64,000 nt of DNA from Chryseobacterium oryzae (GTDB lineage: Bacteria > Bacteroidota > Bacteroidia > Flavobacteriales > Weeksellaceae), in the NCBI RefSeq assembly GCF_022811665.1, contig NZ_CP094529.1, positions 806,001-870,000 on the forward strand. Reading direction: 5' to 3'. A program made the translations under genes and the position numbers. The notes below the pieces were generated by a model. The model was not told the origin of the DNA, did no database searches, and worked only from the letters and a program-made list of their open reading frames with translations. Shown here one piece after another: positions 19,992-57,550 of the stretch (the stretch's first letter is position 1; each line of letters begins with the position of its first letter).

Positions 19992-21197
19992 TTACACCAG
20001 TTCAAAAAAAACTCTTTTTCCGATTTTGATTTTTGTATGTTTTTTGAGTTCGATATTCTCGGCAGGTTCGGTAATTTTTTCATCATTAATCTGTACCGCT
20101 CCACTTTCTATAAGTCGTCTGATTGCCGATTTCGATTCCCCATTTTTTAACTGTATGCACAAATCCAACAGACTGATTGCGTTATTTTCTGCAACAATTT
20201 CGGAAATCAAAACAGGCTCAAATGCTTTTTCCTCAAAGTTTTTATTCTGAAACTGATTCACGAAAAATTCCTCCGCTTGTTCTGCTTCTTCCGGATTGTG
20301 GTATTGAGAAATGATATTTTTAGCGATAATTTTTTTAATATTCATTGGGTTTTCTCCGGCTTCTAATCGTTCATCAATCCATTTTTTCTCCTCGACAGAA
20401 AAATCGGTGGTGAGGTCCAAAAATTCAGAAATCAGGCTGTCTGGGATAGACATGGTTTTCCCGAACATTTCGTTAGGTTCATCTGTCAGGCCAATGATAT
20501 TGTTTAGGGATTTGCTCATTTTTTCTTTGCCATCCAAACCTCTTAGCAAAGGCATGCACATCACAATTTGCGGATTCATTTCAAAGGTTTCCTGCAGTTG
20601 TCGTCCCATGGTACAGTTAAAAAGCTGATCGGTACCGCCCATTTCGATATCGGCTTTTATTTTTACCGAATCATAACCTTGCAAAATTGGGTAAACCAAC
20701 TCGTGCATGGCGATGGGCGTGTTTTCCGTAAATCGTTTGTTAAAATCGTTTCGGTGCATCAGTTGCGCCACGGTCACTTTGGACAATAGCTGGATGACCT
20801 CAGAAAAAGAAAGCGCGTCTAGCCAATCCGAATTAAACACAATCTCTGCTTTTTCTACATCAATAATCTGAGACAATTGGTTGAGATAAGTTTCGGCGTT
20901 GTGTTGTACATCTGCTACAGAAAGTGGTTTTCTGCTTTTGTTTTTTCCTGTAGGATCTCCAATTCTTGCAGTAAAACTACCGACCAAAATCACGATCTGA
21001 TGTCCCATATCCTGAAATTGCTTTAGTTTTTTCAGTACTACGGCATGTCCCAAATGCAAATCTGGCGCAGTAGGATCAAAGCCTAATTTGATGATGAGTT
21101 TTCGGTTTTCTTGGTGTGCCTGTTTTAGTTTTTCTTCCAAGCCATTTTCTGGCAGAGTGATGGCAACGTTTTCTTTCAGTTTGCTAATGTTATCCAT
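19992..21197 (-). CDS. tyrS: Tyrosyl-tRNA synthetase
   Basis: Class I aminoacyl-tRNA synthetase of 401 residues that charges tRNA-Tyr. The HIGH-equivalent HLGH is at residues 48-51 (DPTAPDLHLGHAVVL), the KMSKS loop is in GKEKMSKSLNNIIG near residue 230, and the C-terminal 65 residues form an S4 RNA-binding domain (SAIRRLIESGAVQINDEKI). The sequence resembles the TyrZ-like branch. It is preceded by a tyrosine-rich leader peptide and a terminator hairpin, so expression is probably attenuated in response to tyrosine or charged tRNA-Tyr. It is transcribed alone with its own terminator. Confidence 0.95.
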   Translation of the reverse strand: MDNISKLKENVAITLPENGLEEKLKQAHQENRKLIIKLGFDPTAPDLHLGHAVVLKKLKQFQDMGHQIVILVGSFTARIGDPTGKNKSRKPLSVADVQHNAETYLNQLSQIIDVEKAEIVFNSDWLDALSFSEVIQLLSKVTVAQLMHRNDFNKRFTENTPIAMHELVYPILQGYDSVKIKADIEMGGTDQLFNCTMGRQLQETFEMNPQIVMCMPLLRGLDGKEKMSKSLNNIIGLTDEPNEMFGKTMSIPDSLISEFLDLTTDFSVEEKKWIDERLEAGENPMNIKKIIAKNIISQYHNPEEAEQAEEFFVNQFQNKNFEEKAFEPVLISEIVAENNAISLLDLCIQLKNGESKSAIRRLIESGAVQINDEKITEPAENIELKKHTKIKIGKRVFFELV

Positions 21198-21217
21198 TTT
21201 GTTTTAAAATTTTGAGA

Positions 21218-21248
21218 ATAAAAAAAGCCCGGGCATCGGCTCGGGCTT
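21218..21248 (-). terminator. Leader attenuator (terminator hairpin) of tyrS
   Basis: Hairpin with 10-base arms (plus 21225-21234 and 21239-21248, one G.T pair), loop of 4. In the minus-strand RNA it is followed directly by a run of U, and the tyrS ATG comes about 20 bases later. A terminator this close ahead of a gene and after a Tyr-rich leader ORF fits an attenuator. Confidence 0.82.
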
Positions 21249-21271
21249 ATAGGTTATGGTAAGATATTTTT

Positions 21272-21379
21272 CTAAATGTCAGTCAGTTCAGAATAAACAT
21301 ACCTCCTCCGAGCAGTTACTATTCTGTAATAATAAGTGCTGAAAAAAGGAAGACGTAATATACTGTTTAGGTGTTTCAT
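21272..21379 (-). CDS. Tyrosine-rich leader peptide of tyrS
   Basis: A 35-residue ORF between the tyrS promoter and its attenuator. It starts MKHLNSILRLPFF and has three consecutive Tyr codons (residues 16-18, plus 21326-21334), two more at residues 27 and 29, and ends ELTDI-stop. Its ATG lies 7 bases after the -7 box, so the mRNA begins almost at the start codon. Codons 23-24 (GCT CGG, plus 21308-21313) are complementary to CCGAGC in the 5' arm of the attenuator (plus 21239-21244). Stalling at the Tyr codons could therefore favour an antiterminator. The role is inferred by analogy with amino-acid operon leaders. Confidence 0.8.
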   Translation of the reverse strand: MKHLNSILRLPFFSTYYYRIVTARRRYVYSELTDI

Positions 21380-21386
21380 CCGGTTG

Positions 21387-21416
21387 CAAAGATAAATAAT
21401 CTATTGTAAGCATCAA
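21387..21416 (-). promoter_or_regulatory. Promoter of the tyrS leader
   Basis: Minus strand: -33 TTG (plus 21414-21416), a 19-base spacer, then -7 TATCTTTG (plus 21387-21394). This is a full match to the Bacteroidota promoter consensus. Confidence 0.82.
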
Positions 21417-21567: not shown

Positions 21568-21575
21568 TAATTTTG
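21568..21575 (+). promoter_or_regulatory. -7 promoter element of the RND efflux genes
   Basis: TAATTTTG, 30 bases ahead of the adaptor ATG. No clear -33 TTG at the usual distance. Confidence 0.5.
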
Positions 21576-21605
21576 ATGTTTATAATGGTCAAAATACAAC
21601 AAATA

Positions 21606-22745
21606 ATGAAGCGTCTTATAAATACAAATGTCAAGCGGTCTGTTTTGCTTTTCGCAGTTCTAGTGATGGCAAGTGCCTGCAAAAACTCCGATAAAGAAAC
21701 CGAACAACCAACACCAAGTGTAGAGGCAGAGATTCTTACACTACAACCTACCGATGCGGTTATCGACCAGACTTTCCCCGCAAGTTTGCAAGGTAAAGAC
21801 AACGTGCAGCTTCGGCCACAAATCAGTGGTTATATCGATAAAATCTTTGTGGACGAAGGTGCTTTTGTACGTGCAGGTCAACCACTTTTTCGCATCAATG
21901 CCAGTGTTTATCGCGAGCAAAAAAATACGGCTTTGGCTTCTTTGGCAATGGCAAAATCACAGTTGGCATCGGCTAAGTTGGAGTTGGATAAATACAAAGT
22001 TCTTACGGATAATAAGGTGGTAGCAGATTTTCAGTTCAAAAAGGCAAAAACCAATTACGAAAATGCCAAAGCGGCGGTAACCCAACAACAGACATTGGTG
22101 GCTTCTGCTGATGTTAATTTGGGATTTTCGGTAGTTAAGGCACCGGTTAGCGGCTATATAGGGCGCATCCCAAACCGATTGGGCGCGTTGGTTGGTCCTA
22201 ATGATGCACAACCCCTTACCACCTTATCTCAGGTAAATGAAATCTATGCTTATTTCTCACTTCCCGAGAATGAAATCCTGAAAATTAATGTGACACGACC
22301 AGGCGCTAATCTGTTAGAGAAACTAAAAAGTTTCAGAGACATCACCTTGTTATTGGCGGATGGCAAGCCTTATAACCATTCCGGGAAAATCGATATGATG
22401 GATGGTCAGTTTGATGCCACAACGGGTTCGGTTACGCTTCGTGCTTCTTTTCCCAATCCCGAAAGTTTACTCAGAACCGGCAACACAGGGCGGATTGTGA
22501 TGCAATCTACAGAACAAAATGTATTCAAAATTCCTTTATTGGCAACTTATGAGATTCAGGATAAACTGTTTGTCGGTTTGCTCAACAGCAAGAATAAAAT
22601 GGAACGTGTCGCCCTCAAAAATTATATCAAATCAGGAGATTTTTACATCCTGAAATCTGGTTTTAAATCCGGAGACAGAATCATTGCCAATGAGCTTTCC
22701 AGCATTCCGGAAAATAGTATCATCCAGCCTAAAAAAGTACAATAA
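21606..22745 (+). CDS. RND efflux periplasmic adaptor subunit
   Basis: Membrane fusion protein of 379 residues linking the inner-membrane pump to the outer-membrane channel. The start ATG 21606 gives a lipoprotein signal with lipobox MASAC (Cys25). An earlier TTG at 21573 would spoil the signal length. Order of domains: barrel-sandwich half (QLRPQISGYIDKIFVDEGAFVRAGQPLFRI near residue 67), alpha-hairpin (residues 100-170), second lipoyl half (VVKAPVSGYIGRIPNRLGALVG), then beta-barrel and membrane-proximal domains. The permease starts 12 bases downstream. Confidence 0.93.
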   Translation: MKRLINTNVKRSVLLFAVLVMASACKNSDKETEQPTPSVEAEILTLQPTDAVIDQTFPASLQGKDNVQLRPQISGYIDKIFVDEGAFVRAGQPLFRINASVYREQKNTALASLAMAKSQLASAKLELDKYKVLTDNKVVADFQFKKAKTNYENAKAAVTQQQTLVASADVNLGFSVVKAPVSGYIGRIPNRLGALVGPNDAQPLTTLSQVNEIYAYFSLPENEILKINVTRPGANLLEKLKSFRDITLLLADGKPYNHSGKIDMMDGQFDATTGSVTLRASFPNPESLLRTGNTGRIVMQSTEQNVFKIPLLATYEIQDKLFVGLLNSKNKMERVALKNYIKSGDFYILKSGFKSGDRIIANELSSIPENSIIQPKKVQ

Positions 22746-22757
22746 AACTCAATAAAA

Positions 22758-25700
22758 ATGTTAAAAACAATCATAAAAAGACCGGTACTGGCTACCGTTA
22801 TTTCCATTATATTGGTTTTGTTGGGGATTTTGGGATTGTTACGAATCCCGATGACGCAGTTTCCGGAAATTGCGCCGCCTACCGTTTTTGTATCCGGAAC
22901 TTACCCGGGCGCAAATGCCGAAAGTGTAATTCGGTCTGTTGTTACACCTTTGGAACAAGCGATAAATGGGGTAGAAAATATGCAGTATATGACCTCTAAC
23001 GCATCTAATGACGGTAGTTTTTCTATTACCATTGTTTTTAAACAAGGTGTAGATCCGGATCAGGCTGCCGTAAATGTCCAGAACCGCGTGGCTCAGGCAA
23101 ATGCGCAATTGCCGTCGGAGGTGATACGTTTGGGATTAACCACCACCAAACAACAAACAAGCTATCTGATGATTGTCAATATCAATAGCGATAAACCCGA
23201 AAAATATGACGAGGCTTTTTTGCAGAATTATGCTAATATCAATCTGATTCCGGAGCTAAAACGTATCCCCGGTGTGGGAAATGTGAGTTTGTTTGGAGCG
23301 AAAGATTATTCGGTGAGGGTTTGGATCAATCCGACAAAACTCTCGTCCTACGGGCTTGTGCCCGCAGATGTGGAGAATGCAATACAACAGTACAGCTTCG
23401 AGGCTTCTCCCGGAAGTTTGGGGCAAGAAACCGATGCCTCTCTGCAATACGTTTTGCGCTACAAAGGGAAACTGAATAAGCCCGAAGAGTTTGAAAAAAT
23501 CATTCTTCGGTCTAAAAATGATGGCTCTATTCTCCGTTTGGGAGATGTGGCGCGCATCGAGTTTGGATTGTCTAATTACTCCAGCGATACGTTTACCGAT
23601 GGCAAACCATCTGTGGTTTTTGCCGTGTTGCAAGCCAGTGGTTCTAATGCCAATGACATCGCTATAGAAGTCGGAAAATCATTAGAGAGCTTCCAAAAAA
23701 GTGTGCCGGATGGAATCCATTTCGAGGTCATTCAGAGTATGAAGAATCGTCTGGATGCATCCATTGCCCAAATGAAATCAACTTTGATAGAAGCCTTTAT
23801 CTTAGTATTTATCGTCGTTTTGATATTCTTACAGGATTTCCGTTCTACGATTATCCCGGCAATTGCCGTTCCTGTTTCCATTATCGGGACATTCTTTTTT
23901 ATCTATCTGATTGGCTTTTCGGTAAATGTTTTAACGCTTTTTGCATTGGTCCTCGCAATCGGGATTGTGGTGGATGATGCTATTGTGGTGGTAGAGGCGG
24001 TGCACGCCAAGATGGAGGAGACAGGAGACGATGCCAAGACTGCAACGGTTTCTGCGATGAGCGAAATCAGCGGGGCAATTATTTCGATTACTTTGGTAAT
24101 GTCGGCGGTATTTCTCCCGGTTGGTTTTATGGAAGGTCCTGCGGGTATTTTTTACAAGCAGTTTTCTTATACCTTGGCGATTGCGATTCTAATTTCGGCA
24201 GTCAATGCACTGACTTTGAGTCCGGCTTTGTGCGCCTTGTTACTCAAAAATCATCAACATAACAATAATGGCAAACCGAAAAAATTTACCCAACGTTTTT
24301 CTGAGGCTTTTAATGCCAGTTTCGAACGTCTTACGGATAAATACATTGGTGCGGTACGCTTTTTAGGCAAAAAGAAAATAATGGCTTTGGGTGCGCTGAT
24401 TGTGGTTTCGTTAGGTGCTTTCCTTCTGATGAATTCTTCCCAAAAAGGCTTTGTGCCGGAGGAAGATGATAACAATTTAACCTTTGTGGTTAATCTTCAG
24501 GCGGGTGCCAATCTTCAGTTCATCACCAAAGAAATGGAAAAGGCGACCAAAATTGTTCAATCTTTACCCGAAGTAAAAAGTGTCAGTACGGTTTCGGGAT
24601 TCAGTTTGTTTAGTTCAGGATCTTCGCCCAATGCAGCAATGGGATTTATTACTCTAAAAAATCCAAAAGACAGAGGTGCCGTTTCGGATATTAATGATGT
24701 GATGCACAAAATCGAAAACCAAATGAAGGGAAAAATAAGAGGCGAGTTTTTGATTTTCAGAAATCCTGCGGTAGAAGGTTTTGGGAATGCCGGCGGTGTA
24801 GAATTTGTGCTGCAGGACAGAACTTCTGGTAATATCAACGATTTTGAAAACATCAGTAAAAAAGTTATCGAAGCCCTCAATAAAAAACCGGAAATCGGGA
24901 TGGCATTTACCACATTCCGAAGTGATTTCCCACAATACGAAGTGATTCTGAACGAGGATAAAGCGCAACAATTGGGCTTAACACCAAAAGAAGTAATGGA
25001 TGCCTTGCAGTTGTATCTTACCGGTTCGCAAACCACCGACTTTGTGCGTTTTGGGAGATTATACCGTGTGAATGTCCGTTCCGAAGCCGAATTTCGGAAG
25101 AACGAAGCATCGCTGGATAATATTATGATTCGCAACAATCAAAACGAGATGGTACCGATTTCTACTTTGGTTACCCTCAAAAAAGTGTTTGGTCCGCAAG
25201 GTATCAGCCGATATAATTTGTACAATAGCATCAGTATTAATGTGAATGCCGCTAATGGCGCAAGTACCGGAAAAGTAATGGCGGTTATTGATGAGGTTCT
25301 GAAAAAAGATTTGCCCAAAGGCTACAGCTACGAGTATAACGGGCTGAGTCTGCAAGAAAAGAAATCGGGCTCGCAGATGGTCTTTATTTTCGGGTTGAGT
25401 ATCTTGTTTGTGTACTTTTTACTATCTGCACAATACGAGAGTTATCTGTTGCCATTGGCAGTAATGTTGTCTTTACCTACGGGGATTTTGGGTGTGTTTC
25501 TCGCCACAGGATTTGCAGGGATAGATAATAATATTTATGTACAGATCGCCTTAATTATGCTGGTAGGCTTGCTCGCCAAAAACGCCATCCTGATTGTAGA
25601 ATTTGCTATCCAACAACGCAAATCCGGATTGTCGGTGTTTGAGGCTGGTCTTGCCGGTGCCAAAATGCGTTTGCGACCAATTTTGATGACGTCTTTTGCC

Positions 25701-25880
25701 TTTGTTGCGGGATTGGTACCGTTGATGTTCGCAACGGGCGGTACAGCAATTGGTAACAAATCTATTAGCATCAGTGCTGCCGGCGGAATGCTGAGTGGCG
25801 TGCTTTTAGGCGTTCTGATTATCCCGGTTTTGTATATGATTTTCCAAACTTTGCAAGATCGGATTTCGGGGGTGAAATAA
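22758..25880 (+). CDS. RND multidrug efflux permease (AcrB/MexB type, HAE1)
   Basis: Proton-driven inner-membrane pump of 1040 residues, the normal length of the AcrB family. The N-terminal membrane helix is followed by the porter domain start (RIPMTQFPEIAPPTVFVSGTYPGAN). The proton-relay Asp pair is in AIGIVVDDAIVVVEA at about residues 406-407. The duplicated C-half has VGLLAKNAILIVEFA near 935 and MRLRPILMTSFAFVAG. It should assemble with the adaptor upstream and the TolC-type lipoprotein encoded 1.1 kb downstream. Its DNA looks richer in G+C than genes such as tig. Substrates are not predictable. Confidence 0.95.
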   Translation: MLKTIIKRPVLATVISIILVLLGILGLLRIPMTQFPEIAPPTVFVSGTYPGANAESVIRSVVTPLEQAINGVENMQYMTSNASNDGSFSITIVFKQGVDPDQAAVNVQNRVAQANAQLPSEVIRLGLTTTKQQTSYLMIVNINSDKPEKYDEAFLQNYANINLIPELKRIPGVGNVSLFGAKDYSVRVWINPTKLSSYGLVPADVENAIQQYSFEASPGSLGQETDASLQYVLRYKGKLNKPEEFEKIILRSKNDGSILRLGDVARIEFGLSNYSSDTFTDGKPSVVFAVLQASGSNANDIAIEVGKSLESFQKSVPDGIHFEVIQSMKNRLDASIAQMKSTLIEAFILVFIVVLIFLQDFRSTIIPAIAVPVSIIGTFFFIYLIGFSVNVLTLFALVLAIGIVVDDAIVVVEAVHAKMEETGDDAKTATVSAMSEISGAIISITLVMSAVFLPVGFMEGPAGIFYKQFSYTLAIAILISAVNALTLSPALCALLLKNHQHNNNGKPKKFTQRFSEAFNASFERLTDKYIGAVRFLGKKKIMALGALIVVSLGAFLLMNSSQKGFVPEEDDNNLTFVVNLQAGANLQFITKEMEKATKIVQSLPEVKSVSTVSGFSLFSSGSSPNAAMGFITLKNPKDRGAVSDINDVMHKIENQMKGKIRGEFLIFRNPAVEGFGNAGGVEFVLQDRTSGNINDFENISKKVIEALNKKPEIGMAFTTFRSDFPQYEVILNEDKAQQLGLTPKEVMDALQLYLTGSQTTDFVRFGRLYRVNVRSEAEFRKNEASLDNIMIRNNQNEMVPISTLVTLKKVFGPQGISRYNLYNSISINVNAANGASTGKVMAVIDEVLKKDLPKGYSYEYNGLSLQEKKSGSQMVFIFGLSILFVYFLLSAQYESYLLPLAVMLSLPTGILGVFLATGFAGIDNNIYVQIALIMLVGLLAKNAILIVEFAIQQRKSGLSVFEAGLAGAKMRLRPILMTSFAFVAGLVPLMFATGGTAIGNKSISISAAGGMLSGVLLGVLIIPVLYMIFQTLQDRISGVK

Positions 25881-57479: not shown

Positions 57480-57550
57480 TAGACCCACAGGGATTCGAAC
57501 CCCAGATGACTGAACCAAAATCAGTAGTGTTACCGCTACACCATGGGTCT
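57480..57550 (-). tRNA. tRNA-Gln (anticodon TTG)
   Basis: A 71-base cloverleaf on the minus strand. The acceptor stem is AGACCCA / TGGGTCT with discriminator A, the D arm is GTGT-AGCGGTA-ACAC, and the anticodon arm is ACTGA-TTTTGGT-TCAGT giving anticodon TTG. The T arm contains TTCGAAT. CCA is not encoded. It is flanked by its own full promoter and terminator. Confidence 0.96.

Follow-up and report, generated by a model that had tools for sequence, protein, structure and literature searches.

Upstream of an auxiliary tyrosyl-tRNA synthetase (TyrRS) gene in Chryseobacterium oryzae, we found a short coding leader that, judged from its sequence and that of its relatives, is very probably a ribosome-mediated transcription attenuator controlling an enzyme that has probably spread horizontally. 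Most likely, the spare TyrRS is switched on when charged tyrosine tRNA is scarce, a response to tyrosine that we infer from the leader's parts and their conservation. All of these parts lie on the minus strand of the window, which is the whole stretch of 64,000 nucleotides that we analysed (contig NZ_CP094529.1, positions 806,001 to 870,000).

An auxiliary TyrRS gene and its leader

In the direction of transcription, the region opens with a TTG promoter element of the -33 type (21414..21416), a weak motif read in the sequence. After a gap of 19 nt it is followed by the Bacteroidota -7 element TATCTTTG (21387..21394), 7 nt 5' of the leader ATG at 21379, and both elements stand where the initial annotation had placed them. 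The leader open reading frame (ORF) (21272..21379; MKHLNSILRLPFFSTYYYRIVTARRRYVYSELTDI) encodes 35 aa with Tyr at positions 16, 17, 18, 27 and 29, so that the 35 codons, the three successive Tyr and the two further Tyr that had been described are all present. Tyr codons 16–18 (21326..21334) read TAT TAT TAC. Codons 23–24 supply GCTCGG (21308..21313), the 5' strand of an antiterminator whose 3' strand, CCGAGC (21239..21244), is part of the 5' arm of the terminator; this complementarity had also been pointed out, and the pairing recurs in 140/140 anchored leaders. The intrinsic terminator and its T-run occupy 21220..21248, with the hairpin AAGCCCGAGC-CGAT-GCCCGGGCTT (loop CGAT) at 21248–21225. 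Although hairpin and T-run exist as annotated, an A·C mismatch leaves 9 of the supposed 10 pairs, a single mismatch found only in the window and in L058, the other 85 of 87 leaders pairing fully. The T-run ends at 21220, 22 nt ahead of the tyrS ATG at 21197. An AGGAGG at 21302–21307 (codons 25–26) resembles a Shine–Dalgarno sequence and occurs at that site in 0/19 other aligned sequences.

The downstream gene (19992..21197) encodes 401 aa, and its translation contains the motifs HLGH and KMSKS. Its product matches TIGR00234 (tyrS) with an E value of 2.8e-105, and the nearest solved chains are 6bqy, 6byq and 1h3e. The name tyrS was therefore apt for a TyrRS gene but not for the cell's only one, as a second TyrRS of about 430 aa is encoded in the same genome (C1:2680260-2681369(-), open frame 435 aa, 30% identical). 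In a family sample of 296 genomes, 292 had TyrRS matches at E up to 0.001; 114 carried a window-type gene (E<1e-180) and one, G222, a truncated copy, and each genome with a window-type or truncated gene showed two TyrRS matches. Given this pairing and the second TyrRS in the window's own genome, the window gene is, by sequence comparison, an auxiliary TyrRS beside a housekeeping one, with its specificity assigned by family. Two of the 114 genes are not plainly whole: that of G199 has one internal TAA, and in G176 the match stops at residue 366 of 401. In a phylum sample of 395 genomes, the window's TyrRS clade (E<1e-200) occurred only in G000 (the window's genome), G060 and G072, and other TyrRS matches at E up to 1e-60 had 41–47% identity among the matches listed.

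The housekeeping TyrRS gene has a TATCTTTG box 26 nt 5' of its ATG, and inspection by eye upstream of this gene revealed no terminator and no comparable leader; a TTG-started 25-aa frame with a Tyr pair overlaps into the gene and was taken for chance. By analogy, candidate purposes of the spare enzyme are protection from D-Tyr, as considered for TyrZ of B. subtilis (PMC9437257), and resistance to a TyrRS inhibitor, as with the indolmycin-resistant TrpRS1 (PMC9437257).

The leader is consistently linked to the auxiliary gene. In the family sample, it lies ahead of 114/114 auxiliary TyrRS genes with E<1e-180 and of the truncated one (L254), the 114 comprising 30 among loci L001–L110, 83 from further upstream stretches and G072 (leader L112). 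A homologous leader is present in 110/110 of loci L001–L110, including 80/80 named loci, which are the best 80 of 228 tblastn relatives; many of L081–L110 are repeat strains of L001–L080. It is also present in 84/84 additional family-sample stretches, truncated G222 included, which were fetched upstream of every remaining auxiliary gene except that of G072, already covered as L112. Leaders were detected by a peptide motif that 0 loci failed, so none was dropped. The pooled set holds 141 leader ORFs distinct in DNA sequence; these sequences are related, and counts over them are not counts of independent events. As the initial annotation had suggested, we looked for relatives in which the ORF, its Tyr codons or the terminator was missing and found none, with the leader at 114/114 genes and both terminator and antiterminator in 141/141 leaders.

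Beyond this gene, the leader seems not to be reused. In the phylum sample, a leader search gave scores of E<1e-13 only in G000, G060 and G072, the three genomes with this TyrRS clade, and the next-best score was 5.3e-4, at a different place. Reuse before other genes was examined in the 26/395 genomes with matches at E up to 0.05 and rejected, as the three below 1e-13 all stand before this TyrRS. No other convincing leader was found in 26 of 31 loci inspected, to which weak places in G000 were added; L130, L131, L132, L134 and L139 (weak) were left out. Leaders with runs of Thr or His codons were absent from the window's genome in a search with two patterns. At G222:C3:248720-250700 (L254), the truncated auxiliary TyrRS (match residues 4–89, frame 93 aa) retains a conserved-peptide leader, and at G199:C2:78413-79597 the match with the internal TAA retains leader L250; gene decay is possible there.

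A TyrRS tree of 29 clade members and three outgroups, in which both support thresholds were reached by only 10/29 inner branches, has a grouping at odds with taxonomy. Sphingobacterium groups with Vaginella, Gelidibacter and Arenibacter are each split, and the window, C. tagetis and MAG 39-10 fall outside the well-supported main Chryseobacterium group. This grouping suggests that the auxiliary TyrRS spread by horizontal transfer, and the spare enzyme and its own sensor seem to travel together as one cassette. Carriage of the clade on plasmids was considered and rejected, the 12 plasmid records matching at E up to 1e-80 each having <60% identity. Conserved neighbour genes were likewise discounted: among frames of at least 120 aa, only TyrRS is common to 17/17 neighbourhoods, and others occur in at most 5. 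In the window, an efflux operon of the RND type (21573–25880), with adaptor and transporter ORFs that were named from sequence by eye, runs divergently and starts about 0.3–0.4 kb from the tyrS start, and its genes are found in <3 of the 17 neighbourhoods.

Promoter and alternative RNA structures

The position of the -7 element predicts a very short 5' untranslated region. Among the 87 of 141 distinct leaders covered by the promoter test, an exact TAnnTTTG lies 4–9 nt before the leader ATG in 54, with one further at 15 nt, and at least 5 of the 6 -7-box bases occur within 3–10 nt of the ATG in 81/87, compared with 16/87 in a control range 30–37 nt away. In F. johnsoniae, many transcription start sites lie 4 or 5 nt 3' of the -7 box (PMC6847099), which would give the window a 5' untranslated region of about 2–3 nt. 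With the box at 4–9 nt in 54/87 leaders, the mRNA is probably nearly leaderless from its predicted start site. For F. johnsoniae, the same source gives 87% of predicted leaders as >10 nt and the -33 motif as much less evident, and it describes Bacteroidota as naturally without Shine–Dalgarno sequences (PMC6847099); 5.5% of mRNAs are leaderless in F. psychrophilum (PMC9723704). A leaderless start alone is not new, because it is known from attenuators of Streptomyces lividans (PMC8079986) and from the trpL transcript of Sinorhizobium meliloti, which begins at its own ATG (PMC7298713).

The distal end of the promoter in many Chryseobacterium loci (for example L017 and L103) also bears a box of 20 bp, CTTAATGGTTTAAATATTGG, 50–56 nt 5' of the leader ATG. 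At least 17 of its 20 bases are found in 67/141 distinct leaders. When CTTAATGGTTTAAATATTGG was searched as a regulon site in three genomes, each contained a single exact copy, located ahead of the leader; the box is possibly a dedicated activator or repressor site.

A terminator is present in all 141 distinct leaders, 140 detected by script (at least 9 pairs) and one, that of L229, by eye, with an interrupted T-run. The antiterminator core consists of six pairs with the terminator 5' arm, all of which form in 140/140 anchored leaders; for L229, unanchored by the script, we identified TTGTTCGGG and CCCGGAC by eye. Antiterminator and terminator share this arm and are mutually exclusive. Their geometry relative to the reading frame is nearly fixed, with the CGG of the 5' strand at nt 67–71 from the ATG, that is, 21–25 nt past the first base of Tyr codon 16, irrespective of the intervening residues (140 leaders); the leader frame measures 75–114 nt (87 leaders).

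Comparison with shuffled sequences supported the pairing. Codons 19 to the end paired with the terminator 5' arm with a mean score of 12.2, against 5.7 in mononucleotide shuffles, and the observed score was reached by a mean of 2% of shuffles (87 leaders, 60 shuffles each). Sliding the partner strand reduced pairing from 100% to at most 57% in two classes of 20 and 24 sequences. The co-variation that the initial annotation had proposed to look for was seen between classes, where both sides of antiterminator column -2 change (TA 98, CG 41, TG 1), but not within them: the helix is nearly invariant in each class, with no two-sided change and 500/500 shuffles equal to the observed value (20 and 24 sequences). 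An extended antiterminator helix was unconvincing (mean shuffle fraction 0.20).

Folding predictions point to a further hairpin that would hide the antiterminator strand. In the window class (20 sequences), RNAalifold predicted a hairpin that holds the Tyr codons, pairs TATTATT with AATAATA and closes over GCTCGG. In the window, this putative anti-antiterminator (21307..21343; arms at leader nt 37–52 and 57–73) includes the Tyr codons and would sequester GCTCGG, and the free fold also shows it. For the Chryseobacterium RSG class (24 sequences), the prediction was a CCCG/CGGG hairpin immediately upstream. In partition-function calculations, the strand was sequestered upstream in 127/140 leaders before segment 3 was made, and with a ribosome mask on Tyr16 (nt 28–60) it paired with segment 3 in 140/140, the mask removing the competitor by construction. 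The hiding hairpin scored 0.72 in 29 leaders and 0.55 in codon-resampled controls, a modest excess, and in L014, L031, L041, L063 and L076, among others, it was no better than those controls. Because the mask removes the competitor by construction and the controls already reach 0.55, the folding of the hiding hairpin supports the model without settling it. Once segment 3 was made, equilibrium favoured the antiterminator in 56/140 leaders without a ribosome and in 37/140 with a ribosome at the stop codon; according to the model, kinetics must decide in leaders of this kind.

Selection on the leader peptide

Codon 16 is TAT in 141/141 leaders. Codon 17 encodes Tyr in 140/141 (TAT 82, TAC 58, CTT 1) and codon 18 in 48/141. 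In the TyrRS genes at the 80 named loci, TAC is used more often (198, versus 112 TAT), and TAT at codon 16 may be held by the hairpin in the window class. The run of three Tyr codons on which the initial annotation had relied is thus real in the window but is no general feature, as most relatives have two Tyr codons and L179 has one at the site. In L179 (G049), the stall site reads FFSEYLL and another Tyr codon occurs only near the end; this leader also precedes an auxiliary TyrRS and provides a natural test case for the number of Tyr codons required.

Ahead of the Tyr codons, we observed a conserved peptide, LN[SN]ILRLPFFS, within a segment that in the window spans codons 4–17 (LNSILRLPFFSTYY; 21329..21370). 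Over the 141 leaders, L8 and P11 are conserved in 141, R9 and F13 in 140, L10 and F12 in 137 and S14 in 122, followed by Y16 in 141 and Y17 in 140. The ratio pN/pS was 0.21 for codons 2–15 and 0.98 for codons 19–28 in 29 diverse leaders, and 0.29 and 0.96, respectively, in the 14 of these that belong to the window class. In the RSG class (50 leaders), it was 0.08 before the Tyr codons and 1.08 for codons 18–28; the TyrRS gene, for comparison, gave 0.12 (180 codons, 28 loci). A frame control over codons 2–16 of 44 diverse leaders yielded 0.20 in frame, as opposed to 1.24 and 1.83 out of frame. In the same 44 leaders, diversity at the three codon positions was 0.15, 0.13 and 0.41 for codons 2–17 and a flat 0.58, 0.56 and 0.54 for codons 19–28.

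These values indicate that the leader peptide is under protein-level selection, which ceases at the Tyr codons, and they argue indirectly that the leader ORF is translated. An RNA-level cause of the conservation fits poorly, because synonymous change is plentiful in the conserved segment; Leu4, for example, is encoded by all six Leu codons across 80 leaders. Selection on the peptide stops at the predicted stall site of the ribosome, which is most simply read as a contribution of the chain inside the tunnel to the pause; the nascent chain may help to stall the ribosome.

Proposed switch, rival explanations and known systems

In the switch that we propose, RNA polymerase would start about 2–3 nt 5' of the leader AUG, so that ribosomes would load on a nearly leaderless mRNA. 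With ample Tyr-tRNA, the ribosome would pass codons 16–17 without waiting. In the window class, the hairpin round the Tyr codons would then re-form and hide GCUCGG, and in the Chryseobacterium RSG class the CCCG/CGGG hairpin just past the Tyr codons would do the hiding; with GCUCGG hidden, the terminator would form and the TyrRS gene would stay untranscribed. When Tyr-tRNA is scarce, through tyrosine shortage or because the housekeeping TyrRS is inhibited or overloaded, the ribosome would wait at Tyr16/17, cover the upstream arm and free GCUCGG for CCGAGC. This pairing would block the terminator, and the spare TyrRS would be made. Because the nascent chain LN[SN]ILRLPFFS would probably make the pause longer or sharper, as few as one or two Tyr codons could be enough. 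The scheme assumes transcription–translation coupling in Bacteroidota. The analogy with trp/his-type attenuation drawn at the outset is upheld by the anatomy and the comparative genomics, but the conserved peptide goes beyond the plain type. We put forward more tentatively that this is a hybrid attenuator, a mobile spare-TyrRS cassette in which an arrest-like peptide and an invariant UAU on a nearly leaderless mRNA would form a sharp Tyr-tRNA sensor, combining the principles of codon starvation and nascent-chain arrest in one switch.

Alternatively, the leader could be mainly a nascent-peptide arrest sensor of the TnaC, SpeFL or Erm-leader type. Its conserved peptide would then be stalled by a small molecule, for instance tyrosine, one of its analogues or an antibiotic directed at the ribosome or at TyrRS, and the Tyr codons would do no more than indicate where the stall occurs. 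Such a sensor would account for the conservation of residues 4–17 up to the Tyr codons, the stretch that would occupy the upper exit tunnel, and for the presence of just one to three Tyr codons at the site, with a single one in L179. We know of no ligand, and Tyr16 in 141/141 leaders, Tyr17 in 140/141 and a TyrRS as the gene served are best fitted by a sensor of charged tRNA, which leaves the arrest sensor unlikely. It is less likely still that the peptide acts mainly in trans after its release, like peTrpL of Sinorhizobium meliloti (PMC7298713), a precedent that the conserved N-terminal half and drifting C-terminal half would suit: the conserved part stops at the cis-acting codons, no neighbour gene is common to all 17 neighbourhoods, and the 395 genomes contain no convincing leader copy apart from this TyrRS.

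Two further readings we regard as scarcely credible. One is that a constitutive terminator adjoins an unrelated chance ORF. In-frame purifying selection with its frame control, obligate linkage and conservation of both alternative pairing and spacing all argue against chance, and this reading was rejected as contradicted by the leader at 84/84 further stretches, the pairing counts and the frame-specific selection. The other, that the gene is regulated by an RNA that binds tRNA or a metabolite, such as a T-box, has a precedent in B. subtilis tyrZ, which is reportedly under a T box and a MarR factor, but our leader is a coding frame of 75–114 nt. It was set aside in that the only Rfam match in the window at gathering scores is a tRNA at 57480–57550, 36 kb away.

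We thus favour the ribosome-mediated attenuator. That the peptide is selected at the protein level as far as its regulatory codons suggests a role for the ribosome tunnel, and the leader offers a direct test of transcription–translation coupling in Bacteroidota, a phylum in which coupling and leaderless attenuation have been little studied. The apparent spread of a spare TyrRS together with its own sensor raises the possibility that it is selected by TyrRS inhibitors of natural origin or by tyrosine analogues that are toxic.

Like the enteric trp, his and phe attenuators, the Tyr leader combines a leader ORF, cognate codons, mutually exclusive antiterminator and terminator and a gene for the same amino acid. 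It differs from them in having one to three cognate codons, a selected peptide, a nearly leaderless start and a stop codon located 3' of the antiterminator strand (immediately 3' in L046). To our knowledge, plain trp/his-type leaders need no conserved peptide, and amino-acid attenuator leaders are generally held to act through their codons alone. The arrest peptides TnaC, SpeFL and the Erm leaders sense ligands; they share with the Tyr leader conserved nascent-chain residues directly before the stall codon, whereas the TyrRS target and the invariant Tyr codon of the latter indicate charged tRNA. Williams-Wagner and colleagues reportedly described, in 2015, tyrZ of Bacillus subtilis as being under a MarR factor and a T box, in place of which the Tyr system has a leader peptide. 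As in our genomes, TyrZ is a second TyrRS accompanying a housekeeping one (PMC9437257).

The leuS, trpS and thrS attenuators of Streptomyces lividans also have leaderless leader ORFs ahead of aminoacyl-tRNA synthetase genes (PMC8079986). By contrast, they are from Actinobacteria and mostly have shorter peptides (12 to 29 aa), and the eight leaders named in the passages cited include no Tyr case (PMC8079986). Nearer in phylogeny, the F. psychrophilum transcriptome yielded strong indications of attenuation by leader peptides ahead of operons for amino-acid biosynthesis, so that peptide attenuation has been proposed in flavobacteria; that account differs in assigning structured 5' untranslated regions to aminoacyl-tRNA synthetase genes, and its relevant passages do not mention tyrosine (PMC9723704). 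Among open-licence papers, we found no report of this Tyr leader. Lopatovskaya and colleagues are said to have treated attenuation of amino-acid and aminoacyl-tRNA synthetase operons in 2010, and their work may contain related predictions. The nearest functional analogue is trpRS1 of Streptomyces, an auxiliary, indolmycin-resistant TrpRS that Vecchione and Sello reportedly found in 2010 to be under ribosome-mediated transcriptional attenuation. Both systems thus pair an auxiliary aminoacyl-tRNA synthetase with a ribosome-mediated attenuator, although they differ in amino acid, phylum and enzyme, and the Tyr leader has in addition a peptide conserved across genera and an apparently mobile cassette.
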